A stretch of DNA of 40,607 nucleotides, taken from Nocardiopsis chromatogenes YIM 90109 (GTDB taxonomy: Bacteria > Actinomycetota > Actinomycetes > Streptosporangiales > Streptosporangiaceae). Shown here piece after piece: positions 6 to 35,725 of this stretch; the stretch's first letter is position 1; the number at the start of each line of letters is the position of its first letter. The position numbers were made by a program, and so were the translations under genes. The notes below the pieces were generated by a model. It did no database searches. It was not told where the DNA came from and saw nothing but the letters and a program-made list of their open reading frames with translations. The stretch covers positions 1-40,607 of the forward strand of contig NZ_ANBH01000098.1 of assembly GCF_000341185.1 (NCBI RefSeq), read 5' to 3'.

Positions 6-1022
6 TCAGGACTGCTCGGGCAGGACCGATTCGGGCAGTTCCACGCCGTTGTCCTCGGCCCACCTCACGGCGCCGGGGTGCATGGTCACGGAGGACTCGG
101 CCATGGTCTCGGGGACGAAGTAGTCCTCCCCGGCGGCGTAGACCGACGTGAGCTGGTCGGTGTTGCCGTACAGCGCCTCCAGCACGTCGTAGGCCTTGTC
201 CTCGGGGAAGTCCGAGGGGACCACCAGCAGGTTCCACAGCGCGATGGTGTCCACGTCGTCCTCGACGGTGGAGTAGGTCCCGCCGGAGATGACGTGCTCG
301 CTGTAGTAGGGGTAGCTGTCGGTGATCTGCTCGCGCTCGTCGTCGCAGAAGGGCACCAGGTGGATCGGGTCGGTGGCCTCCAGCTCCAGCAGCGTGTTGT
401 GGCCCTCGCCGACCACCCACGAGCCGGCGTCGATGGTGCCGTCGCGCAGCGCGGTGGAGGTGTCGGCGTAGTCGAGGTGCTGCACGTCGGTGCTGGTGAA
501 GCCGAGCTCCAGGGCGTTGAAGATGAGCTCGGAGGCCAGTGCGTTGCCGCTGCCGGCCGGACCGGCGGAGAAGCGCTCGCCGTCCACGTCGGAGAAGCAC
601 TCGAAGTCCTGCTCCTCGTTGATGGATTCGAGCGTGACCGCGTGGTACACGTTCGGGTACAGGGCGGTCAGCACCTGCGCGTCGACGGCGGCGTTCTCGA
701 AGTCCCGCTCCCCGTTGACCGCCTGGGAGGTGGCGTCGGCCTGGGCGATGCCCATCTGGAGCTGGCCGCTGCCGATCTGCTTCATGTTCGCCACCGAGGC
801 CTCGGTGGAGGTGGCCGAGGCGGTGGTGCCCTCGACCTCGGAGGAGATCACCTCGGCCAGGGCGCCGCCCAGCGGGTAGTACACGCCGGAGGTGCTGCCG
901 GTGCCGATGGTGATGTCGCCGTAGTCGTCGCCGCCGTCGCCGCCCTGCTGGGCGGGCTGGGCGCAGGAGGCGAGCAGGAGCGCGGCGGCGGGGAACGCGG
1001 CCAGAGCAAGGGGGTTGCGCAT
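6..1022 (-). CDS. TAXI-family TRAP transporter solute-binding lipoprotein
   Basis: 338 aa. The N-terminus is a lipoprotein signal peptide with lipobox LASC, so Cys20 should be lipidated and the protein anchored outside the membrane. After a Gly/Asp-rich linker comes the TAXI pattern: ITIGTGSTSGVYYPLGGALA (about residues 37-56), then a type II periplasmic-binding fold with the conserved AGPAGSGN-like ligand loop near residue 155. TAXI proteins deliver small organic acids or amino acids (for example glutamate) to a fused TRAP 4TM/12TM permease; the ligand here cannot be deduced. The stop codon is 6 bases from the window edge, so a permease gene may lie just outside, downstream on the same strand. 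A weak AGAGGA lies 12 bases before the ATG. Family assignment is firm; substrate is unknown. Confidence 0.88.
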   Translation of the reverse strand: MRNPLALAAFPAAALLLASCAQPAQQGGDGGDDYGDITIGTGSTSGVYYPLGGALAEVISSEVEGTTASATSTEASVANMKQIGSGQLQMGIAQADATSQAVNGERDFENAAVDAQVLTALYPNVYHAVTLESINEEQDFECFSDVDGERFSAGPAGSGNALASELIFNALELGFTSTDVQHLDYADTSTALRDGTIDAGSWVVGEGHNTLLELEATDPIHLVPFCDDEREQITDSYPYYSEHVISGGTYSTVEDDVDTIALWNLLVVPSDFPEDKAYDVLEALYGNTDQLTSVYAAGEDYFVPETMAESSVTMHPGAVRWAEDNGVELPESVLPEQS

Positions 1023-1326
1023 CGCGTGGGGGGTCCTCTCGAAGGCGGGGCGGTGCGCGGGCGCTCCGGGAGCCTGGGCCTCCGTCGGGTCGTGTCACGC
1101 CCCCCGGCGGGCCCGAACGGTGCCCCTTCGTGAGTTATTTGTCTGTTTCATCGATGAGATGCGCGAGAAGTCTAGTGATCTTCGGCCGGATCGTGCCAGT
1201 CGTCAGTCGTTTAAATTGTGAATTATGGAATTCAAGCACCGAATATCCGCTATGCGAATTATGTCGGAAACTCGGCTGTCCGGCTCCCCTGTGGCCGACC
1301 GGAACCGCAGGTCAGGCGGGGCGTGC
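1023..1326. other. Intergenic region with an AT-rich core
   Basis: No convincing gene. About 1130-1290 is far richer in A/T than anything nearby. It holds a perfect 10-bp palindrome TCATCGATGA (1148-1157) and an inverted repeat TGAATT-N4-AATTCA (1219-1234). It lies upstream of the TAXI lipoprotein gene and after the stop of the aldolase-like gene, so it is probably that lipoprotein's promoter and operator region. On the minus strand a TTGAAT hexamer is followed by TAAACG 16 bases later, only a loose promoter match. Confidence 0.5.
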
Positions 1327-1980
1327 TCAGCAGGGCAGGAACGGGTCCGGCCCGGCCCAGCCCTGCTCGTCGCGGCGGCGCACCTCGGCGAGCTCGTCCT
1401 CGGAGAGCACGCGCGGGGCGCCGAGCGCGCGGCTGCGCGTGTAGACCCCGCACAGCCACTCCAGCAGCCGCATGTTCTCGTAGGCGCGGTCGGCGTCCTC
1501 GCCGGTGGCGGCGCCGCCCAGGCACGCCAGCAGCGCGGCGCTGCGGCCCTTGAACGCCTTGACGGCCTGGTCGGCCAGGTCGCCCGAGCCGTAGGGCGCG
1601 TACCCGGCGACCGGCACCGCGCCGCCGAGGCGGGCCGCGGCCTGGTGGACCGGAGGCAGCTCGGACAGCACGGCCGAGACCGCGGCGGCGTGCTCGCCGG
1701 GCGCCTGCACCAGCGCGCCGACCGGGGTGCACCGGTGCACGGCGATGTGCAGGGTGGTGTCGGCGGCGGGGGACCGGCGCCCGTCCAGGACGCCGCCCTC
1801 CAGGGAGAGCACCGGGCAGTCGGCCGGCTCGACGCGGTCCAGCGGGACCCCGGCGGGGGTGACGGCGATCAGGTCGCCGGAGCGGACGCTGACGGTTCCG
1901 GAGCCGCCGTGGGCGAGGCCCTCGGCGGCCAGGCGGCGTGCGGTCCGGGAGGCGTCCCTGCGCTCTTGCTCTAGAAGCAT
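1327..1980 (-). CDS. Class II aldolase/adducin-fold protein lacking the metal ligands
   Basis: 217 aa from the ATG at 1980, the length of L-fuculose-phosphate aldolase. Hand alignment to E. coli FucA is good end to end: GTVSVR (FucA GNVSVR), VTPAGVP (FucA ITPTGIP) and the C-terminal VLSEDEL. The catalytic positions are replaced: FucA Glu73 is Asp74, zinc ligands His92 and His94 are Gln92 and Pro94, and His155 is Leu154. A zinc-dependent aldol cleavage is therefore unlikely. It may bind a sugar phosphate, act as a scaffold as in adducin, or have a new activity. The reading frame is open further upstream to 2088, but that part is Pro/Arg-rich and unlike the family, so I chose 1980. A possible iron box lies about 100 bp upstream. 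Confidence 0.8.
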   Translation of the reverse strand: MLLEQERRDASRTARRLAAEGLAHGGSGTVSVRSGDLIAVTPAGVPLDRVEPADCPVLSLEGGVLDGRRSPAADTTLHIAVHRCTPVGALVQAPGEHAAAVSAVLSELPPVHQAAARLGGAVPVAGYAPYGSGDLADQAVKAFKGRSAALLACLGGAATGEDADRAYENMRLLEWLCGVYTRSRALGAPRVLSEDELAEVRRRDEQGWAGPDPFLPC

Positions 1981-2080
1981 GGTCGCTCGCGTGGTCGGGC
2001 CGGTTCGGTGCGGCCGGCGGTGGCGGGGTGCGTGGGGGACTTCGGGCGTACCGGGCGGGCCCGGGTGTCCGGGGTCCGCC

Positions 2081-2099
2081 TTAGGCATGCCTTATCTAC
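2081..2099. promoter_or_regulatory. Possible DtxR/IdeR iron box
   Basis: The 19-mer TTAGGCATGCCTTATCTAC matches the DtxR/IdeR consensus TWAGGTTAGSCTAACCTWA at 13 of 19 positions by my count, including the full TTAGG half and the GCCT core. Its centre is also a perfect 10-bp palindrome AGGCATGCCT. It sits about 100 bp before the aldolase-like gene start (minus strand) and 330 bp before betB. Functional boxes are usually closer to consensus, so this is only a candidate. Confidence 0.35.
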
Positions 2100-2289
2100 G
2101 TTACCTCCCCTTGGGGCGGTGTTGTCCAGGGCGGACGCCGATGCGCCGGGGTGGCCCGAACCACCGGCGGGCTCCGGTGCCGGTCACCCTCCGTGCGTGC
2201 GGCGTCCGTGCGGCGGGGGCGGCGCGGTGGCGGTGCGGACGCGCGTCGACACCAAGAAACGGTCACGGTGTGTTACGAACTCGCATCTT

Positions 2290-2317
2290 GTTGCGTGATG
2301 TGAACCACGGTTGCGTG
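2290..2317 (+). repeat. GTTGCGTG direct repeat upstream of betB
   Basis: GTTGCGTG occurs at 2290-2297 and 2310-2317, exactly 20 bp (about two helical turns) apart, with a partial copy TTGCGCA at 2324. The same 8-mer forms part of both arms of the inverted repeat at 5573-5655 before proV. This spacing and reuse suggest sites for one regulator of the osmoprotection genes. Confidence 0.45.
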
Positions 2318-2430
2318 TCGTTCTTGCGCATGTTTTCGCAGGTCAGACGCGTGATTTTAGAAAGTCACGATAAAGTAACGTCAGGTTTAAAGTGTTTCGA
2401 GGTGTTTGTGCTGGGCACCACGGTTCCGTG

Positions 2431-3969
2431 ATGCAACCCTACGTAACCCTTCCGAGTAAGCAGTACCTGTCGGAACCGGAAGCGACCTCCGCCACGAGCA
2501 TGTTCGTCGGCGGCCGGTGGCGCGCGGCCGCCGAAGGCGGCACGCGCGAGGTCCTCAACCCCTACGACGCCTCGGTGCTCACCGTGGTCAGCGAGGGGAC
2601 GCGGGCCGACGCCGACGCGGCCGTGGCCGCGGCCCGGCGCGCCTTCGACGAGGGCGCCTGGCGCCGCACGCCCGCGGGCGAGCGCGGGGAGATCCTCGGC
2701 CGCATCGCCGACCTCCTGCAGCGCGACCGCGAGGAGATCGCGCTCATGGAGTCCCTGGACACCGGGAAGACGGTGGAGGAGGGCCGGATCGACGTCGACG
2801 ACGTCACCGGCGTCTTCCGCTACTACGCCGGGCTGGCCGACAAGGACGCCGGGCGGATCGTCTCCACGCCGGAGGGGATCTTCAGCCGCGTCGTCTACGA
2901 GCCCGTGGGCGTCTGCGCGATGATCACCCCGTGGAACTACCCGCTGCTCCAGCTCGCCTGGAAGATGGCCCCGGCCATCGCCGCGGGCAACACCATGGTG
3001 ATCAAGCCGAGCGAGATCACCCCGGTCACCACCTGCAAGCTGGTCGAGCTGACGGTGGAGGCGGGCGTGCCCGCCGACGGCGTGGTCAACCTGGTGCTGG
3101 GCACCGGCGCCGAGGTCGGCTCGGCCATGGTCGAGCACCCCGGCGTCGACCTGGTCTCCTTCACCGGCGGCCTGGCCACCGGCAAGCGGATCATGGCCTC
3201 GGCCGCCGAGACGGTCAAGAAGATCGCCCTGGAGCTGGGCGGGAAGAACCCCAACATCATCTTCCCCGACGTCGACCTGGACACCGCGGTCGACTACGCG
3301 CTCAACGCCGCCTTCTTCCACTCCGGGCAGGTCTGCTCGGCCGGGGCGCGGCTGATCGTGCACGAGGACGTCCACGACGCCTTCACCGCCGAACTCGCCC
3401 GCCGCGCCGAGGCCATCGTGATCGGCTGCGGCCAGAAGGACGAGGAGGGCGTGCGCTGCGGCCCGCTGGTCTCCGCCGAGCACCGCGCCAAGGTCGAGGC
3501 CGCGGTCGCCCGCGGCATCGAGGAGGGGGCCAGGGTCATCGCCGGGGGCAAGCGCCCCGACGACCCGGAGCTGCAGGACGGCTACTTCTACCGGCCCACG
3601 GTGTTCACCGGCTGCTCGCGCGGGATGGACATCGTGCAGACCGAGGTGTTCGGCCCGGTCGTCACGGTCGAGACGTTCCGCACCGAGGACGAGGCCATCG
3701 AGCTGGGCAACGACACCGACTACGGCCTGTCCGGCGCGGTGTGGACGAACGACGCCGGGCGCGGCGAGCGCGTCGCCGCCGCCCTGCGGCACGGGACCGT
3801 GTGGATCAACGACTACGGGCCCTACTTCGCGGGCGCCGAGTGGGGCGGGTTCAAACGCTCCGGCGTCGGGCGCGAGCTGGGCCAGGCGGGGCTCGACGAG
3901 TACCGCGAGGCCAAGCACATCTACCGCAACCTGGCCCCCGAACCGCAGCGCTGGTTCGGCGAGGTCTGA
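2431..3969 (+). CDS. betB: Betaine aldehyde dehydrogenase
   Basis: 512 aa from the ATG at 2431; 489 aa if the in-frame ATG at 2500 (MFVGGRW) is used, which is closer to the usual family length of about 490. Neither has a strong ribosome site and the first codons after 2431 have low GC3, so the start is open. It is an NAD(P)-dependent aldehyde dehydrogenase: TPWNYP (Asn169), IKPSE (Lys192), LELGGKNP (general base Glu268), FHSGQVCSAGAR (nucleophile Cys302) and the C-terminal GFKRSGVGRELG. It should oxidise betaine aldehyde to the compatible solute glycine betaine in the cytoplasm. The role rests on the adjacent choline-oxidising gene 51 bp downstream and the betaine importer beyond it; sequence alone cannot exclude another aldehyde. 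Confidence 0.9.
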   Translation: MQPYVTLPSKQYLSEPEATSATSMFVGGRWRAAAEGGTREVLNPYDASVLTVVSEGTRADADAAVAAARRAFDEGAWRRTPAGERGEILGRIADLLQRDREEIALMESLDTGKTVEEGRIDVDDVTGVFRYYAGLADKDAGRIVSTPEGIFSRVVYEPVGVCAMITPWNYPLLQLAWKMAPAIAAGNTMVIKPSEITPVTTCKLVELTVEAGVPADGVVNLVLGTGAEVGSAMVEHPGVDLVSFTGGLATGKRIMASAAETVKKIALELGGKNPNIIFPDVDLDTAVDYALNAAFFHSGQVCSAGARLIVHEDVHDAFTAELARRAEAIVIGCGQKDEEGVRCGPLVSAEHRAKVEAAVARGIEEGARVIAGGKRPDDPELQDGYFYRPTVFTGCSRGMDIVQTEVFGPVVTVETFRTEDEAIELGNDTDYGLSGAVWTNDAGRGERVAAALRHGTVWINDYGPYFAGAEWGGFKRSGVGRELGQAGLDEYREAKHIYRNLAPEPQRWFGEV

Positions 3970-4020
3970 GCGGCCGCGCACGCCTACCGACCCCCGTCCC
4001 CGGAACCATCTGGAGCGCCC

Positions 4021-5574
4021 ATGAGCGGGAACGCCCGCACCTTTGACTACGTGATCGTCGGCGGCGGCACCGCCGGCTCGGTGATCGCCAACCGGCTCAC
4101 CGAAGACCCCTCGGTCAGCGTCTGCGTGATCGAGGGCGGCCCCTCCGACCGCGGCCTGGACCGCGTGCTGAACCTGCGCGAGTGGCTGGGCCTGCTGGAG
4201 AGCGACCTGGACTACGGGTACACCACGACCGAGCAGCCGCGCGGCAACTCGCACATCGTGCACTCGCGCGCCCGCGTGCTCGGCGGGTGCTCCTCGCACA
4301 ACACCCTGATCAGCTTCCGCCCGTTCGCCGAGGACCTCGACGAGTGGGTGGCGGCCGGAGCCGAGGGCTGGGACAACGCCACCGTGCAGTCCTACGCCGA
4401 CCGGCTCAAGAACAACATCGTCCCCATCGCCGAGAAGGACCGCAACGACCTGGTCAAGGACTGGGTCCAGGCCTCGGCCAAGGCCACCGGCGTCCCCGTG
4501 GTGGAGGACTTCAACGCCCGGACCTCGCACGGCGGCGGCTTCCGCGACGGCGTCGGGTTCCTGTCGATCTCCTACGACCCCTACACCGGTCAGCGCTCCT
4601 CGGCGTCGGTCGCCTACCTGCACCCGATCATGGACGTGCGGGAGAACCTGACCCTGATGCTGGAGACGTGGGCCGACCGGATCGTCTTCGACGGCGACCG
4701 TGCCACCGGCGTCGAGGTCGTCACCGCCGACGGCGAGCGGGTCACCGTCTCGGCGGGCAGCGAGGTCATCCTGAGCGCCGGGGCGATCGACACCCCGCGC
4801 CTGATGCTGCTCTCCGGCGTCGGCCCCAAGGGCGACCTGGAGCGGGTCGGCATCGACGTGCGGCACGACCTGCCGGGCGTCGGGGAGAACCTGATGGACC
4901 ACCCGGAGTCCATCATCATGTGGGAGACCAACAGGGACGTCCCGGACGAGACGGTCATGCACTCCGACGGCGCGCTGTTCATCCGCCGCGACGAGTCCGA
5001 CCCGCGCCCGGACCTGATGTTCCACACGTACCAGATCCCCTTCGACGACAACACGAAGCGGCTGGGCTACGAGTCGCCGGGGTGGAGGCGCGCCATGTGC
5101 ATGACGCCGAACATCCCGCGCTCGCGTTCGCGGGGCAAGCTCTGGCTCAAGAGCTCCGACCCCCGGGAGAAGCCGGCGCTGGACTTCCGGTACTTCACCG
5201 ACCCCGACGGCTACGACGAGCAGACCATCGTGGACGGGCTGAAGATCGCGCGGAAGATCGCCGAGACCGAGCCGTTCAAGTCCTGGATCGCCCGCGAGGT
5301 GGCCCCCGGACCGGAGGTCGTCACCGACGAGCAGCTCTCCGAGTACGGGCGGCGCGCGGCGCACACCGTGTACCACCCGGCCGGGACCTGCAAGATGGGC
5401 GCCGCCGACGACGCGGCCGCCGTGGTCGACCCGAAGCTCAGGGTCCGGGGCCTGCGCGGCCTGCGGATCGCCGACGCGTCGGTGTTCCCGACCATGCCCT
5501 CGCCCAACCCGATGGTCACGGTCCTGACCGTCGGTGAGCGCGCGGCGGACCTGATCCGCGCCGAGCGGATCTAG
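4021..5574 (+). CDS. betA: Choline oxidase/dehydrogenase (GMC flavoprotein)
   Basis: 517 aa; GGAG lies 7 bases before the ATG. The N-terminal FAD site is VIVGGGTAGS (residues 11-20). It resembles Arthrobacter choline oxidase more than proteobacterial BetA: the block RVLGGCSSHN carries His93 at the position of the histidine that covalently holds FAD (His99 there). Catalytic residues align as Glu296 (E312), His335 (H351), His452 (H466) and Asn496 (N510). Choline oxidase Ser101 is Thr95 here. It oxidises choline to betaine aldehyde and, if a true oxidase, might carry on to betaine using O2 and make H2O2. No membrane segment is visible, so it should be cytosolic. It follows betB by 51 bp, probably in one transcript, and its stop codon touches the large inverted repeat at 5573-5655. 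Confidence 0.88.
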   Translation: MSGNARTFDYVIVGGGTAGSVIANRLTEDPSVSVCVIEGGPSDRGLDRVLNLREWLGLLESDLDYGYTTTEQPRGNSHIVHSRARVLGGCSSHNTLISFRPFAEDLDEWVAAGAEGWDNATVQSYADRLKNNIVPIAEKDRNDLVKDWVQASAKATGVPVVEDFNARTSHGGGFRDGVGFLSISYDPYTGQRSSASVAYLHPIMDVRENLTLMLETWADRIVFDGDRATGVEVVTADGERVTVSAGSEVILSAGAIDTPRLMLLSGVGPKGDLERVGIDVRHDLPGVGENLMDHPESIIMWETNRDVPDETVMHSDGALFIRRDESDPRPDLMFHTYQIPFDDNTKRLGYESPGWRRAMCMTPNIPRSRSRGKLWLKSSDPREKPALDFRYFTDPDGYDEQTIVDGLKIARKIAETEPFKSWIAREVAPGPEVVTDEQLSEYGRRAAHTVYHPAGTCKMGAADDAAAVVDPKLRVRGLRGLRIADASVFPTMPSPNPMVTVLTVGERAADLIRAERI

Positions 5575-5655
5575 GGGGCGTTGCGTGGATCATGGCCCTG
5601 GCGGGGGCCCTACCCGGGCACCGCGCAGTAGGTTGTGATCCACGCAACACCCCCT
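5573..5655 (+). repeat. Long inverted repeat after betA, in the proV leader
   Basis: Two 20-base arms (5573-5592 and 5636-5655) are complementary at 19 of 20 positions, and wobble pairs extend the stem to about 25 bp in RNA. The 43-base centre contains a smaller GCCC/GGGC hairpin. The arms include GTTGCGTG / CACGCAAC and start inside the betA stop codon. It may end betA transcription or act as an operator or attenuator for the downstream importer genes. There is no T tract, as is common in actinomycetes. Confidence 0.75.
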
Positions 5656-5808
5656 GGGAGAGGCCGCCCCCGGTCGGCGGCCGCGCCCGCCCGTGCCCAT
5701 CTGCCCGAAGGGCGCGGCACCGCCCCTGCGCAGCGGGGGCCTGGACCGCGTTCGCCGACCGGAGGGCGTCCGCCGCACCCCGACCCCTTCCCATCCGTCC
5801 CCCCGAAC

Positions 5809-5829
5809 GGCACCGGCCCCTCCGGTGCC
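5809..5829 (+). promoter_or_regulatory. Leader hairpin 1 before proV
   Basis: A perfect 8-bp stem GGCACCGG / CCGGTGCC closes a 5-base loop about 75 bases before the proV start. The region 5656-5902 holds no gene and forms the untranslated leader or promoter region of the importer operon. Confidence 0.5.
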
Positions 5830-5850
5830 CTGTACCCGACGAGCGCCGCC

Positions 5851-5875
5851 GTGCGCACGGCCGTTCTGTGCGCAC
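5851..5875 (+). promoter_or_regulatory. Paired palindromes before the proV ribosome site
   Basis: GTGCGCAC, itself palindromic, occurs at 5851-5858 and 5868-5875. The two copies can form a hairpin with a 9-base loop or serve as two protein-binding sites. They end about ten bases before the AGAGGTGG ribosome site of proV, where a repressor or RNA fold could control translation or initiation. Confidence 0.5.
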
Positions 5876-5902
5876 TGCGGCCATCAGAGGTGGACTTCTT
5901 CT

Positions 5903-7020
<1,118 letters not shown>

Positions 7021-7024
<4 letters not shown>

Positions 7025-9021
7025 GCATGCCCGCGACAACCGCGACAACCGCGACAACCGCGACCCCCGAGACCCCCGCGACCCCCGAGAAGGTGCCGGC
7101 CACGGCCGACGGCGCCGAGCAGGCCGGTACCGGCTCCGGCGCGCTGCGCTCACTGCTGTCCCGCACGTGGGTGCAGGCCGCCGCGGTGCTGGCCGTGCTG
7201 GCGCTGGCCGCGGCCCTGCCGCTGCCCGGCGGCGTCCCCGCCTTCCCGGCCGGGCCGGGGGAGTGGCTGGACGGCCGCCTCAAGGAGCTCTTCTCCTGGG
7301 TGGTGTCCAACCGCGACACCAGCCCGCTGTTCGTGTACGGCTTCAACTACGTGTCGGTCTACCTGGGCTCGGCCGTCGTCCTCATCAACGACCTGCTGAC
7401 CACCCTGACCTGGACCGGCGTCACGGTGCTGGGCGTTCTGGCCGCCTGGCGGCTGGCCGGGTGGCGGGTCATGCTCGTCGTCCTGGCGGCCTTCGCCGTC
7501 TTCGGGCTGTTCGGCCTCTGGGAAGAGGCCATGGAGACGCTGGCGCTGATCACCGCGGCGGTGCTGCTGGCCCTGGTCGTCGGGCTGCCGCTGGGCATCT
7601 GGTCCGGGCGCAGCGACCGCGCGGAGCGCGCGATGCGGCCGGTGCTGGACTTCATGCAGACCATGCCGGCCTTCGCCTACCTGATGCCGATGCTGCTGAT
7701 GTTCGGCATCGGCAACCCGTCGGCCGCGGTGGCCACCGCCATCTACGCGCTCCCCCCGGCCGTGCGCATCACCTCCATGGCGCTGCGCGGCGTGGACAAG
7801 GGGGCGGCGGAGGCCGCCGAGTCCCTGGGCTCGACCAACCTGCAGATGCTGCTGAAGGTGCGGCTGCCGCTGGCCAAGCGCACCATCATGCTCGGCGTCA
7901 ACCAGACCATCATGCTGGGCGTGTCCATGGTCGTCATCGCGTCGGTCATCGGCGCGGGCGGCCTGGGCGACGCCGTCTACCAGGCGCTGCAGAAGGACCG
8001 CATCGGCCTGGCCCTGGAGGCCGGGCTGGCCATCGTCATGCTCGCCATCTCGATGGACCGGGTCACCGGCGCGATCGGCCACGGCCGCCCGGTGCCGCCG
8101 CGGTGGCGGCGGCTGGCGTTCGGCGGCGGCCTGCTCGCCGCGCTGGCGGTGTTCCTGCTGCCCACCCCGCTGCGCGCGGTGGACGGCTGGCCGCGCGCCT
8201 GGGAGCTGGACCTGGCCACCCCGGCGCAGGCCTTCTACGAGGCCATGAAGGACACCATCGGCCCCGTCACCTCCGCGATCGGCGACTGGACCGTGGTCTG
8301 GGTCCTGGAGCCGCTGCACCAGATGCTCGCCGGTGCCCCGTGGTGGCTGGTCGTCATCGCCGCCGCGGTGCTGGGCGGGCTGCTGGCCGGGCGCCGGGCC
8401 GCCGTGGTGGGCGTGCTGTCGCTGCTGGCCATGGGCCTGATGGGCCAGTGGGGCAACGGCATGAACACGCTCTCCCAGGTGCTGCTGGCGACCGTGCTGG
8501 TGCTGGCCCTGGGCGTGGTGCTCGGCATCGGCATGTCGCGCAGCGACCGGGCCGCGGCCGTGATCCGCCCGGTGCTGGACGCCATGCAGACCCTTCCCCC
8601 CTTCGTGTACCTGATCCCGGCCGTGGCGCTGTTCAGCGTGGGGCGCGTCCCCGCGCTCGTCGCCGCGGTGGTGTTCGCGCTCCCGCCGGTCATCCGGCTG
8701 GTGAACGACGGGATCCGGGGTGTTCCGGCGAACACCGTGGAGGCCGCCCGCTCGCTGGGTTCCTCCCGTTCGCAGCTCCTGGCCAAGGTGCAGCTGCCGC
8801 TGGCGCGCTCTTCGATGCTGCTGGCGGTGAACCAGGCGATCATGCTCATCCTCTCGATGGTCGTGATCGGCGCCCTGGTCGGCGGAGGCGCGCTCGGATA
8901 CGACGTCGTCTTCGGCCTCAAGCAGAACGAGTTCGGAATGGGACTCACCGCGGGCCTGGCCATCGTGTGCCTGGGCCTCCTCCTCGACCGTATGACCCAA
9001 GGCAGGAAGAACAATGCGTAG
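7021..9021 (+). CDS. proW: Fused double ProW-type ABC permease for glycine betaine
   Basis: 666 aa, about twice a usual ProW. It carries two complete permease units. Each has a (D/M)F/AMQT(M/L)P motif and an EAA loop ([10 protein letters not shown] near residue 264, [10 protein letters not shown] near 575), followed by LPLA and the conserved NQ(T/A)IML helix. Both halves of the membrane channel are thus on one chain, and it should work as a single-chain dimer with two ProV subunits. The N-terminal 25 residues are a Thr/Ala/Pro repeat encoded by tandem GCGACAACC units (about 7030-7060). The GTG at 7021 overlaps the proV stop; the ATG at 7027, with a GGGGGTG just before it, is an equal candidate start. 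The ProX gene overlaps its 3' end by 8 bp. Confidence 0.9.
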
Positions 9022-9988
9022 AACGACCGCTACCCGTAACGCTTCGATCGCCGTCAAGGGGGCGGCCGCCGTCTCCGCGATGGCCGTGCTGTCCGCCTGC
9101 GGCGGCGCGACCTCCCAGGATGTGGCCGGCGATGACGAGACCGTCCGCATCGCCGTCAACGGCTGGGTGGGCTACGAGGCCTCCGCCGCCGTGCTGTCCT
9201 ACCTCCTCGAAGAGGAGATGGGCGTCAAGGTCGACCAGCAGAAGATCGACGAGCAGCCCTCCTGGCAGGGCCTCAACGACGGCGACCTCGACGTGATCCT
9301 GGAGAACTGGGGCCACGAGGACCTGATGGAGCAGTACGGCCCCGACGGCAACGGCACCGTCGTCGACGGCGGCCCCAACGGCAACACGGGGACGCTGGGC
9401 TGGTACGTGCCCAAGTACCTGGTGGACGAGAAGCCCGAGCTGGCCACCTGGGAGGGGATCAGGGACAACACCGACCTGTTCACGACCCCCGAGAGCGGTG
9501 ACAAGGGCGAGTTCCTGGCGGCCGACCCGGCCTTCGTCACCCAGGACCAGGGCATGATCAACCACTTCGACATGGACCTGAAGATCGTCCACGCCGGGTC
9601 CGAGGCCGCGCAGATCACCGAGATGCAGGGCCGGTACGAGAAGGAGGAGCCGTTCCTGGCCTACTTCTACGACCCGCAGTGGCTGCAGAGCGAGATCGAC
9701 CTGGTCCACGTGGAGTTCCCGGAGTACGAGGAGGGCTGCGCGGACGACGAGGAGGACGTGTCCTGCGGCTACCCCCAGTACGACCTGAACAAGATCTTCA
9801 GCAAGGAGTTCGCGGACGCCGGCTCGCCCGCCTACGAGCTGCTGAAGAACTGGGAGTGGACCAACGAGGACCAGAACGAGGTCGCCAAGATGATCGCCGA
9901 CGACGGGATGGACCCCGAGGAGGCGGCTGAGAAGTGGGTCACCGACAACGGTGACGTGTGGCAGGACTGGATCCCCGCGGACGCCTGA
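9014..9988 (+). CDS. proX: Glycine betaine-binding lipoprotein of the ABC importer
   Basis: 324 aa, starting inside the last codons of the permease gene (8-bp overlap). A lipobox LSAC gives a lipidated Cys29, so the protein is tethered outside the membrane. The mature part is an OpuAC/ProX-type binding protein: NGWVGYEASAAVLSYLLE near the start, DVILENWGHEDL, GWYVPKYLVD and NHFDMDL. The several Trp/Tyr residues in these blocks fit the aromatic cage that holds quaternary ammonium ligands. The gene order ATPase, permease, binding protein makes a complete importer. A second, closely similar binding protein follows after a hairpin. Confidence 0.92.
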   Translation: MRRTTATRNASIAVKGAAAVSAMAVLSACGGATSQDVAGDDETVRIAVNGWVGYEASAAVLSYLLEEEMGVKVDQQKIDEQPSWQGLNDGDLDVILENWGHEDLMEQYGPDGNGTVVDGGPNGNTGTLGWYVPKYLVDEKPELATWEGIRDNTDLFTTPESGDKGEFLAADPAFVTQDQGMINHFDMDLKIVHAGSEAAQITEMQGRYEKEEPFLAYFYDPQWLQSEIDLVHVEFPEYEEGCADDEEDVSCGYPQYDLNKIFSKEFADAGSPAYELLKNWEWTNEDQNEVAKMIADDGMDPEEAAEKWVTDNGDVWQDWIPADA

Positions 9989-10018
9989 TCCGCGCGGGCA
10001 CCTAGAATTGTCTGGTAT

Positions 10019-10051
10019 ATGCGGCGGCGGGCGGTGTTTCCGCCGCCGCAT
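10019..10051 (+). terminator. Hairpin between the two ProX genes
   Basis: A perfect 11-bp stem ATGCGGCGGCG / CGCCGCCGCAT with an 11-base loop, followed by GTTTCTGT. It lies 30 bases after the first proX stop. It could end transcription, or let only part of it through so that the second binding protein is made at another level. There is also AT-rich sequence just before it (TAGAATTGTCTGG). Confidence 0.65.
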
Positions 10052-10131
10052 GTTTCTGTCCGGTTCCCCCGCCGGGTGGACCCCTGCCCTTCCCCCGCAG
10101 CACCGAGACGATCCCCGAGGCGGTAGTCCCC

Positions 10132-11115
10132 ATGTCCGGTAACCCCAGCACGCCGAGCACCCCCCGCAGGGCCGTGCAGGCCCTCGCCCTGACCCTCGCG
10201 GCCGGGCTCGCCGCCTCGTGCGGCGCCCCGGACGGCGACACCGGCGGCAGCGGCGGCGGCAACGCCCCCGTGCGCATGGCGGTCAACGGTTGGGTGGGCT
10301 ACGAGGCCTCCGCCGCCGTCTTGGCCTACCTCATCGAGGAGGAGCTGGGCGGCACGGTCGAGAAGGTCGAGGACGACGAGGAGACCTCCTGGCACAAGCT
10401 GGCCGAGGGGGAGGTCGACGTGATCCTGGAGAACTGGGGCCACCAGGACCTGATGGACCTCTACGGCGCCGAGGAGAGCCCGCTGGTCGTGGACGGCGGC
10501 CCGAACGGCAACGACGGGCGCATCGGCTGGTACGTGCCGAAGTACGTGGTGGACGCCCACCCCGAGGTGGCGACCTACGAGGGGCTCGCGGAGAACACCG
10601 GCCTGTTCCGGACCGGCGCGGGCGAGGGGCCCGGCCGGTTCCTGGCCGCCGACCCCACCTTCGTCACCCAGGACCAGGGGATGATCAACCACTTCGACCT
10701 GGACCTGGAGATCGAGTACGCCGGGTCCGAGGAGGAGCAGCTGGAGGAGGTCCGAGCGGCCTACGAGAAGGAGGAGCCGGTGCTCTTCTACTTCTACGAG
10801 CCGCAGTGGATGACCGAGGAGATGGACCTGGTCAAGGTCGAGTTCCCCGAGTACGTCGACCTGTGCGAGATCGACGCCGACGACGTCGCCTGCGACTACC
10901 CCGAGTACGAGCTGAACAAGGTCTTCGCCAAGCCGTTCGCCGACGCCGACTCCCCGGCCTACCGGCTGCTGAAGAACTGGCGGTGGACCAACGAGGACCA
11001 GAACGACGTCGCCGAGAAGATCGCCGGTGAGGGCATGGCCCCCGAAGAGGCGGCGGCCGAGTGGGTCGAGGACAACCCGGACGTCTGGCAGGAGTGGATC
11101 CCCGAGGACGCCTGA
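10132..11115 (+). CDS. Second glycine betaine-type binding lipoprotein
   Basis: 327 aa; GAGGCGG precedes the ATG. Lipobox AASC, lipidated Cys30. It is a close paralogue of the preceding ProX over the whole length, sharing NGWVGYEASAAVL, DVILENWGH, VDGGPNGN, GWYVPKY, FVTQDQGMINHFD and the C-terminal NWRWTNEDQN. It most likely serves the same ABC permease with a different affinity or ligand (betaine against choline, carnitine or ectoine); sequence does not say which. It sits 143 bp after proX behind a hairpin, so it may be separately or weakly transcribed. An inverted repeat follows its stop directly. Confidence 0.9.
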   Translation: MSGNPSTPSTPRRAVQALALTLAAGLAASCGAPDGDTGGSGGGNAPVRMAVNGWVGYEASAAVLAYLIEEELGGTVEKVEDDEETSWHKLAEGEVDVILENWGHQDLMDLYGAEESPLVVDGGPNGNDGRIGWYVPKYVVDAHPEVATYEGLAENTGLFRTGAGEGPGRFLAADPTFVTQDQGMINHFDLDLEIEYAGSEEEQLEEVRAAYEKEEPVLFYFYEPQWMTEEMDLVKVEFPEYVDLCEIDADDVACDYPEYELNKVFAKPFADADSPAYRLLKNWRWTNEDQNDVAEKIAGEGMAPEEAAAEWVEDNPDVWQEWIPEDA

Positions 11116-11147
11116 CCGGCGCCGCCCCGTCGCCGTACCGGCGCCGG
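11116..11147 (+). terminator. GC-rich inverted repeat ending the importer operon
   Basis: CCGGCGCC and GGCGCCGG form a perfect 8-bp stem with a 16-base loop directly after the second binding-protein stop. No T tract follows. Position and symmetry suggest the operon terminator. Confidence 0.5.
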
Positions 11148-11293
11148 ACCCGAGGGGCGGGCTCGTAGCCGCTGCGCCGGTCGGCACCCCCGCCGGGCGA
11201 GGGGCGGTGTTCCCGGTTCCATCCCCGCCGTCCGTCGCCTGTGCGTCCGCTCGCGTGGCGGGCCCACCCCGCCCCCGGTTGGCGCAAGCCCGG

Positions 11294-11854
11294 TCACCGT
11301 GTCGGGAACGGGGTGCCCCAGGTCTCCTCTTCCAGGAGGAGTCCGTTGGCCAGGTAGCTGATGGTCCGGTACCAGCCGGCCAGTACGAGGAATTCCAGGA
11401 GCCGGGCGTCGTCGTAGTGGGCGCGCAGGGCGTCCCAGGCGGGTTGCGAGAGATGCGACGTGTCGTGCAGTTCGTCGACCGCGTTGAGCAGTGCCGCGTG
11501 GTGGGGCGGCCACGAGGCGTCGGCCGTCGTGTCGGTGTCGGTGGTGGCCTGGAGCCGTTCCGGGGTGAGTCCGGCCTGTCGGCCGAGCGTCGCGGCGTGG
11601 ACGCCCCATTCGTAGCCGCAACCGGCGCGCGCGGTCGCTCGGGCGATGACGATCTCGCGGTCGGCGGCGGGGAGAAGCCCGTGTCCCAACAGGCCGGACC
11701 CCAGGGCGAACATGCGTGAGGCCAGTTCCGGGTTGCGGTGCAGCACCCGGAACAGCATGAGCGGCTCGTGCGGCACGTCGGGCGGCATCCACCGGCGGAG
11801 CGCCTGGTCGATGGGCGCGGGGTAGGGCGGGGTGAGCGGTTCGATGCGCGGCAT
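11294..11854 (-). CDS. Carboxymuconolactone decarboxylase (AhpD-like) family protein
   Basis: 186 aa, all-helical. The family core is present: RNPELASRMFALGSGLL, then REIVIARATARAGCGYEWGVHAATL. The usual AhpD redox pair ExxCxxH is not seen; instead there is a single Cys in the variant CGYEWGVH, common in a subgroup whose chemistry is unclear. Possible roles are peroxide defence or decarboxylation or isomerisation of a ring compound. It is divergent from an HxlR regulator with only 67 bp between the starts, so that regulator probably controls it. Family assignment is firm; activity is unknown. Confidence 0.85.
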   Translation of the reverse strand: MPRIEPLTPPYPAPIDQALRRWMPPDVPHEPLMLFRVLHRNPELASRMFALGSGLLGHGLLPAADREIVIARATARAGCGYEWGVHAATLGRQAGLTPERLQATTDTDTTADASWPPHHAALLNAVDELHDTSHLSQPAWDALRAHYDDARLLEFLVLAGWYRTISYLANGLLLEEETWGTPFPTR

Positions 11855-11921
11855 GCCGCACCTCCTGCTTCGGTTTTCGGACCACTATGATGCTTTGGAA
11901 ATCGAAGCGCAAGGAGCGGGC

Positions 11922-12281
11922 ATGGACGCCAGAACGCCTCGGCCGGGCGTACCGGTACGCGGGTCGGAGTCGGGCCGCCCGGTCATGGCGGCACTCGATC
12001 TGCTCGGACGGCGCTGGACGCTGCGCATCCTGTGGGAACTGAGCCACGGCCCGGCGGGCTTTCGTGAACTGCAGCGCCGTTGCGGGCGGATGTCCTCCAG
12101 CGTGCTCAGCACGCGGCTCAGCGAACTGACCGGCGTCCGCCTCCTCGCTCTGCACGGTGACGCCTACCGCCTCACCCGGCTCGGTGAGGACCTCGTGGAG
12201 GCGCTCAGTCCATTGAGCGACTGGAGCCGACGGTGGGCGGAGGAGACGGGCGCCGGTACGACAGGAGACACCGAGGGCTGA
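11922..12281 (+). CDS. HxlR-family winged-helix transcriptional regulator
   Basis: 119 aa from the ATG at 11922, which has AAGGAG six bases upstream; the open frame extends to 11832 but would overlap the divergent gene. The HxlR core is clear: LDLLGRRWTLRILWELSHGP (helix and turn), FRELQRRCGRMSSSVLSTRL (recognition helix) and the wing DAYRLTRLGEDL. The usual N-terminal cysteine of redox-sensing HxlR proteins is absent from the first 30 residues, so thiol sensing there is unlikely; a Cys lies in the DNA-binding region (RRCGRM). It probably regulates itself and the divergent carboxymuconolactone decarboxylase gene. Confidence 0.88.
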   Translation: MDARTPRPGVPVRGSESGRPVMAALDLLGRRWTLRILWELSHGPAGFRELQRRCGRMSSSVLSTRLSELTGVRLLALHGDAYRLTRLGEDLVEALSPLSDWSRRWAEETGAGTTGDTEG

Positions 12282-12308
12282 CGGTGCGGGTCCTCGTCCC
12301 GGGGTCGG

Positions 12309-35017: not shown

Positions 35018-35069
35018 AGAGCGGAGGACGCCCCTAGATGAGTAATTCCAAGGGGTGCACGGTCATGTT

Positions 35070-35725
35070 GTGACGCAAGACCTGAACTCCCTCGCCCGTG
35101 CACTCTACGCCAGGACCGAACACCTCCTGGAACACCGCCCGGACCTGGCCCCGGCGACCCGAGACCGGCTTGCGACCCCGCCTGTCCGACGCCGACCTGG
35201 TCACCCTGGCCCTGATGCAGGCCCTGCTCGGCCACACCAGCGAGGCACGGTGGCTGCGCCATGCCCGCCCCACCTGTCCGACCGATTCCCCTACCTGCCC
35301 CAGCAAAGCGGCTACAACAAGCGCCTGCGCAAAGCCTCCGAGCTGATCGGCCACCTCATCCGCCACCTGGCCACCGACACCGGCGCCTGGACCGGTGACG
35401 TGTGGGTGGTGGACTCCACCCCTGTGGAGTGCACCCGCTCACGCGAGACCGTCAAACGCTCCGACCTGGCCGGATGGGCCCAATACGGGTAGTGCGCCTC
35501 CCACTCCCGCTACTTCTGGGGACTGCGCCTGCACCTGGTGTGCACCCCGAGCGGCCTGCCCGTGGCCTTCGCACTCACCGGCGCCAAAGCCGACGAGCGC
35601 ACCACCCTGGCAGGCATGCTCGCCGACGCCCCCGGCCTGGCCGCCCGATGCCCGGGGCAGACGCTGATCGCGGGCAAGAACTACTACGGGCGCGACTCCG
35701 AACAGGGCCTGGCCCGGGCGGGCCC
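35070..35725 (+). pseudogene. Decayed IS982-family transposase
   Basis: Recognisable from VTQDLNSLARALYARTEHLLEH through RLSDADLVTLALMQALLGHT, SGYNKRLRKASELIGHLI, DVWVVDSTPVECTRSR, KRSDLAGWAQYG, CASHSRYFWGLRLHLVCTP and AGKNYYGRD. Lesions: a frameshift near 35165, a compensating one near 35265, a TAG at 35490-35492 where related transposases have Tyr (YG-Y-CASHSR), a Gly where a catalytic Asp is expected (related proteins have ADKNYFGRD), and loss of the 3' third after about 35725. I could not define terminal inverted repeats. The element is dead. Its truncated end abuts the 3' end of the convergent flavoprotein gene. Confidence 0.85.

Follow-up and report, generated by a model that had tools for sequence, protein, structure and literature searches.

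Bet operons of Gram-negative bacteria are regulated by BetI. The betaine locus of Nocardiopsis chromatogenes YIM 90109, which we analysed in a contig of 40,607 nt (NZ_ANBH01000098.1, hereafter the window) with genome-wide counts covering 6.91 Mb, is alike in that its choline-to-betaine genes would stand under transcriptional control. However, a scan of ten window proteins recognised no TetR-type gene next to the operon, whose neighbours were annotated only in part. The genes follow the order betB-betA-proV-proW-proX-proX, with a divergent class II aldolase gene upstream of betB. The 8-mer GTTGCGTG occurs in front of betB and again in an inverted repeat between betA and proV, and an earlier note on this DNA had proposed that a common regulator reads it at both places and co-ordinates choline oxidation with betaine uptake. 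Here we argue that the copies probably represent two unrelated things, namely a betB operator with a sigma-B/F-type promoter and the terminal repeats of a miniature inverted-repeat transposable element (MITE).

Operators, sigma-B/F-type promoters and MITEs are known kinds of element; the present instances are new. Among the matches listed in a search of open-access literature titles, none concerned a betB operator, a link between GlxR or Crp and betaine, or a Nocardiopsis MITE, which is weak evidence of absence. The textbook CRP site is TGTGA-N6-TCACA. Published actinobacterial motifs are GTG(N)8CAC for GlxR, the CRP homologue of C. glutamicum, and GTG(N)6GNCAC for S. coelicolor Crp (both as given in PMC10033298). 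For sigma factors, one source gives -35 regions of GTTT for SigF/H/N and GNNT for SigB/L/M, and GTTTAA-N14-GGGTAT as the B. subtilis ctc promoter (PMC8346170).

Distribution of the 8-mer

Within the window, GTTGCGTG is present exactly four times: at 2290 and 2310 on the forward strand, 20 bp apart, and in the two arms of the inverted repeat, at 5580 (forward) and 5641 (reverse), just as the earlier note had located them. Dinucleotide-shuffled versions of the window held 1.39 copies on average, and four were reached in 3 of 100 shuffles. The whole genome contains 63 copies compared to 51 of the pattern read backward, so that the 8-mer is not common and the proposed motif withstood this count. 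At the density of the other 59 copies, simple arithmetic predicts about 0.03 for the 3.36-kb stretch that spans the four copies. At least 12 of the 63 copies coincide with matches to the arms of the MITE described below, which makes the word still rarer outside MITEs. The copies at 5580 and 5641 are two arms of one inverted repeat and hence mutually non-independent. The excess of the 8-mer has two separate causes, a betB promoter element and a dispersed mobile repeat.

Tandem copies (GTTGCGTG-N4..24-GTTGCGTG) exist at two places in the genome, upstream of betB and at C99:34599-34620. The latter pair was considered as a related site and judged unrelated; it has a 14-bp period and stands just before an unrelated-looking open reading frame (ORF) that resembles a sugar-biosynthesis gene.

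A conserved element upstream of betB

The first copy forms the left end of a putative betB operator, GTTGCGTGATGTGAACCACGG (2290-2310, forward strand), whose core GTGATGTGAACCAC at 2295-2308 has the form GTG-N8-CAC; the second, direct copy follows at 2310-2317. Conservation was assessed in 46 family loci, of which 43 (6 genus and 37 non-genus sequences) entered the counts after L077, L088 and L097 had been dropped (betB start missing or no betB match); because of shared descent among the genomes, the separate observations are fewer than these counts indicate. Both GTTGCGTG copies recur with the 20-bp spacing in four of the five other genus genomes, the first lying 144 or 154 bp before the reference codon, and the fifth has one exact copy together with GTTGCGCG. 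The second copy is kept in the genus only, where five of six sequences are exact and the sixth reads GTTGCGCG: among 40 further family loci the first copy alone is exact in 8, at 144-146 bp, and the second in none.

A logo of 39 gap-free sites, which left out the 4 gapped ones among the 43, yielded the kept pattern CGTGAt-n-c-g-n-RcCACgG. At the aligned place, GTG-N8-CAC was found in 34 of the 43 family loci (upstream background 0.88 per kb). Some relatives have a perfect palindrome (GTGATGCGCATCAC in L107) and the window an imperfect one (GTGATGTGAACCAC). In the 37 non-genus sequences the operator is the top palindrome centre of the region (z 4.7). When the six genus genomes were searched with TTGCGTGATNNNNNYCACNGTTGCG at up to three mismatches, 14 rows were returned; six were exact and represented the betB sites, one per genome, the remaining 8 had 2-3 mismatches, and reversed controls gave 0.

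The site extends to Streptomyces and Kitasatospora. Among 44 such loci (L157-L200), which have betB in common, GTGA-N7-CAC was detected at most 260 nt upstream of betB in 43, and G[CA]AT-spacer-GGGCA was found downstream of it in 38. The distance from the site centre to GGGCA in those 38 loci was 42 (15 loci), 43 (22) or 44 (1), and such a constant distance between site and promoter makes it look like an activator site. In Nocardiopsis relatives, the 33 sites matching GTG[AG]-N7-CAC lie 111-113 bp (27 sites) or 119-121 bp (4) before the -10 element, with 85 and 149 bp observed once each.

The alignments show 2290-2310 to be a conserved, imperfectly palindromic element of the betB promoter region, and we propose that it would be an operator. 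For Nocardiopsis and Streptomyces, where the operon itself does not reveal the regulator, this gives a concrete, testable candidate site through which betaine synthesis and import would be controlled. Between operator and promoter, the alignment revealed a second conserved block, GCGCATGTTTTCGCAGGTCA (2326-2345, forward strand), which at 2330-2344 carries about 1 bit of column information per base and is about equal to the operator in conservation. A Streptomyces counterpart, GCGCATGCAT, was observed at a similar offset.

A predicted sigma-B/F-like promoter

Motif conservation further points to a sigma-B/F-like promoter at 2394-2418 (forward strand), composed of GTTT (2394-2397), a spacer of 15 nt and GGGCAC (2413-2418). 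The pattern GTTT-N13..16-GGG[CTA]A was found in the last 75 nt in 39 of the 43 family loci and in none of the upstream control stretches; it ends 16 nt before the reference codon in all 39, and its spacer is 15 in 38 of them. Promoters of the Streptomyces SigB/SigF/SigH family are alike in their GTTT or GNNT -35 region, spacer of about 15 nt and GGG-type -10 region, but most loci here have GGGCA instead of GGGTA at -10, and the promoter here is predicted from sequence. A sigma-70 scan gave no match at betB. Translation of betB would start at GTG 2428 or ATG 2431, and since the -10 element ends only 9 nt before the GTG, a leaderless or nearly leaderless message is suggested.

A MITE copy between betA and proV

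The inverted repeat after betA is a short MITE copy of 79 bp (5575-5653) with the arms GGGGCGTTGCGTGGATCA and TGATCCACGCAACACCCC (20 nt, 95% complementary), flanked by CTAG (5571-5574) and CTGG (5654-5657). Allowing up to two mismatches, the arm GCGTTGCGTGGATCA matched 34 times in the own genome, two of these being the window's arms (control 2), 29 times in G005 (control 1) and 10 times in G002 (control 2); not every arm match is an element end. Converging arm pairs were present in 23 of 41 sequences examined, the window pair spanning 71 bp from arm to arm and the other 22 pairs 144-167 bp. Of a full copy, the window has the two ends and some of the right interior, and most of the middle is deleted. 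Of the 23 copies, 13 have CTAG exactly at their left end and 12 at their right end. As to a target-site duplication, the window has CTAG on the left and CTGG on the right, and TA stands on both sides in 11 of 23 copies, the boundary being ambiguous as G/C runs abut it. MITEs are alike in being short, in their terminal inverted repeats, in their many dispersed copies and in a CTAG-type target. The comparison shows 5575-5653 to be a copy, shortened by internal deletion, of a dispersed MITE-type element with terminal inverted repeats whose ends contain GTTGCGTG.

The stop codon TAG of betA is located inside the CTAG that flanks the element on the left, and betA likewise ends in CTAG in two of the five genus relatives, all without the element. 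The MITE would therefore seem to have inserted at a CTAG already holding the betA stop codon; because the usual MITE target CTAG contains the stop TAG, gene ends are natural landing places. A search with a 176-bp full copy detected relatives in 9 of 120 family genomes, and none of the six candidates scored in G001 and G004 passed. MITE relatives were seen in G055, G117 and G094 (for example L322, L326 and L327); some match the interior only (approximately query positions 23-154), hinting at elements with a common core and other ends.

These results bear directly on the proposal that one trans-acting regulator binds GTTGCGTG both at betB and at the inverted repeat before proV. In its favour, the exact 8-mer stands in both regions and is rare genome-wide, and a shuffled arm shares an 8-mer with the operator (2290-2317) in only 1.1% of trials, which puts the chance of overlap with the operator itself at about 0.011. 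However, the repeat is a dispersed MITE with arm-like sequences at many other places of the genome, it lacks the GTG-N8-CAC dyad of the betB site, and none of the 45 other family loci, among them the five genus relatives and 37 loci with proV downstream, has GTTGCGTG after betA. We therefore rejected a common 8-mer regulator of both units, since the second pair lies inside a dispersed element, and regard it as most improbable. What stands of the control-site motif put forward in the earlier note is its betB half, where the pair is conserved with fixed spacing in the genus (orthologous loci bear it out in four of five genus genomes); the importer half falls, its copies sitting in the MITE and having no counterpart after betA elsewhere in the family. 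When the betB upstream region was shuffled, it had some 8-mer in common with the 19-nt arm in 30% of trials, and this is the fairer chance figure because any shared word could have been picked in the first place. The 8-mer common to the operator and the MITE ends would then be a coincidence, and the locus an example of how a MITE can mimic a shared regulatory motif.

Several observations weigh against an operator with its promoter on one side and a MITE on the other. Besides the 1.1% of trials mentioned above, 9 of 43 family loci have no GTG-N8-CAC at the aligned place and 4 of 43 lack the promoter pattern, and in the six genus sequences the operator ranks only third as palindrome centre (z 3.0). 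The distance of about 111 bp that separates the site from the -10 element in the family is large for a classical activator. At 2312-2330, a terminator-like hairpin with a T-rich tail overlaps the second GTTGCGTG copy (the scan found 3 where 1.0 was expected), and this stem-loop may be due to chance. The exact left CTAG is missing in 10 of 23 MITE copies, and the window copy, only 79 bp long, was assigned from its ends and copies, no search for an autonomous parent having been made. Finally, work on S. coelicolor describes induction of betaine-importer genes by salt in the absence of substantial activation of 16 likely SigB targets (PMC13011467), which weakens a simple SigB account.

Candidate regulators of the betB element

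An actinobacterial CRP/GlxR-type protein would bind GTG-N8-CAC and would modulate, probably activate, an osmotic-stress-type promoter. The window core GTGATGTGAACCAC has the spacing of CRP/GlxR sites, and the own genome encodes six proteins clearly over the PF13545 cut-off and two barely reaching it. One of them, encoded at C223:32689, is a close CRP relative (E 5e-81 versus PDB 3d0s, M. tuberculosis CRP, and E 2e-79 versus 4cyd, GlxR). Its recognition helix, GASRETVNKALA, is identical to that of 3d0s, SRETVNKAL being the GTGA-reading helix. The betB sites thus resemble GlxR and Crp sites in spacing and in the presence of a fitting protein, but they differ in having C instead of T before GTGA, a CCAC right half and a strict site that is nearly single-copy. 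The outer bases of TGTGA/TCACA are not kept, with C preceding GTG in 30 of 39 sites and the right half being mostly CCAC, nor is the G of the S. coelicolor motif GTG(N)6GNCAC. A global regulator should moreover have many sites, and strict patterns are almost single-copy, which likewise speaks against CRP. The strict Streptomyces pattern returned 17 rows versus 14 for the reversed control, 11 at betB and 6 elsewhere with two mismatches each, and every row with 0-1 mismatch (6) was at betB. A stricter pattern, which the site of the window itself does not match, gave 6 rows in 12 genomes (controls 0): 4 lay at betB and 2 at other places. On the strength of these comparisons, we consider CRP a possible binder of the betB site, somewhat short of a probable one. 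Were CRP to read the site, osmoprotection in these bacteria would be under direct control of cAMP.

The same numbers speak for a dedicated regulator other than CRP, sensing choline or an osmolyte and having one or very few sites per genome, which we consider as possible as CRP: strict site patterns are nearly single-copy and the CRP consensus is matched imperfectly. One candidate is the product of a small HTH_3 gene that 23 of 36 family loci (L121-L156) have no more than 6 kb upstream of betB; its recurrence also counts against CRP. Against this, GTG-N8-CAC fits GlxR, and the HTH_3 gene was found in none of the 44 Streptomyces/Kitasatospora loci, 43 of which have the site, nor near betB in L121 and L122, the closest relatives, both with the site; in neither case were the genomes searched elsewhere. 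It was not found in the window either, which covers only 2.4 kb upstream of betB. The recurrent HTH_3 gene is thus a candidate operator reader or an unrelated neighbour. More tentatively, an unnamed dedicated regulator responsive to osmolytes or choline might read about one betB operator per genome from Streptomyces to Nocardiopsis. If true, such a regulator and the sigma-B/F-type promoter would together form a switch that opens betaine synthesis and uptake with two keys, stress and substrate. The earlier note's remark that no regulator gene is in the locus needs qualification in view of this upstream gene of related loci, absent from the window, and of an HxlR-type gene past the importer genes (11832-12281). 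Small HTH_3 ORFs were also noted beyond the aldolase gene at L254:8685-8966 and L255:10310-10588.

We also considered an IclR-type regulator of betaine catabolism that would bind GTTGCG at betB. Such a gene stands directly before betA in L246, IclR-like coding sequence was found upstream of betA in L244, L245 and L247, GTTGCG...CGCAAC repeats lie near such genes in distant loci, and the own genome encodes a homologue with 58% identity. However, the locus of this homologue (L257) is devoid of GTTGCG, GTT is far less conserved at the betB site than GTGA and CAC, and the betB copies are direct rather than inverted; for these reasons IclR was judged highly unlikely as the binder. Inspection of wider loci by eye further showed an ArsR-like ORF divergent from betA (L244) and TetR- and LysR-like ORFs a few kb from a 49% betA (L253).

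The betA-proV junction

The start codon of the proV frame overlaps the betA stop in 40 of 41 Streptomyces loci and in 15 of 38 family loci, and proV follows betA on the same strand in 41 of the 44 Streptomyces/Kitasatospora loci. This overlap suggests one operon, in which both functions can share a transcript. A single betB-betA-proVWX transcript would couple choline oxidation to the uptake of betaine or choline, and co-transcription is a simpler explanation of co-ordination than a common regulator.

In the genus, the betA-proV gap measures 112-328 bp. The three genus genomes folded have strong hairpins of unrelated sequence in this gap (z -4.05 to -5.73), the MITE hairpin of the window reaching -87.1 kcal/mol (z -5.73). 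A structure this stable in the mRNA may let fewer transcripts read through to the importer genes. A recruited role of the MITE copy in terminating or attenuating transcription between betA and proV is compatible with its origin as a mobile element. It gains from the stability of the hairpin, from the other strong and unrelated hairpins after betA in two relatives (z -4.32 and -4.05) and from a review that calls a terminator function of MITEs conceivable (PMC10969869). However, there is no T-tract, CCCCTGGGAG following the stem; the repeat is not in the terminator-scan result; and the 8-mer of the element was not found at the betA end in 45 other loci. We thus consider co-option rather unlikely.

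As importer leader, a second hairpin at 5845-5881 (forward strand), directly before the Shine-Dalgarno sequence of proV, is a better candidate than the MITE repeat. It was predicted in all six genus genomes in spite of sequence change, with 5 of 18 pairs changed on both sides (23 pairs predicted overall), and its single-sequence z-scores range from -0.3 to -4.4. Rfam gave no match in 1000-12300.

Genes of the locus and its neighbourhood

The operon genes were assigned by family models and all lie on the forward strand. betB (2428-3969) matched TIGR01804 with 628.8 bits, less than the equivalog cut-off of 668.6, as well as PF00171, and betA (4021-5574), a GMC oxidoreductase gene, matched PRK02106 and TIGR01810 under the cut-off. 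Since both proteins score under their NCBIfam equivalog cut-offs, we name them only betaine-aldehyde-dehydrogenase-like and choline-dehydrogenase-like. The importer for betaine or choline comprises a proV-like ATP-binding subunit (5903-7024; TIGR01186, over cut-off), a proW-like permease with two permease stretches (7027-9021; TIGR03416, over cut-off) and two substrate-binding proteins (9014-9988 and 10132-11115; both TIGR03414, under cut-off). Directly past the importer genes, at 11294-12281, the HxlR-type gene and a carboxymuconolactone-decarboxylase-like gene are arranged divergently. A broken transposase-like frame at 35055-35720, presumably IS982-like, had no Pfam match in the piece scanned.

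The class II aldolase-family gene upstream of betB (1327-1980, reverse strand; PF00596) is outside the operon. By tblastn, 34 of 36 non-Streptomyces loci have the aldolase gene in the 6-kb flank of betB, versus none of the 44 Streptomyces/Kitasatospora loci. By eye, the gene upstream of betB in Streptomyces looked malate-dehydrogenase-like at 7 of 10 loci inspected, and MarR-GNAT-like at 2 of 5.

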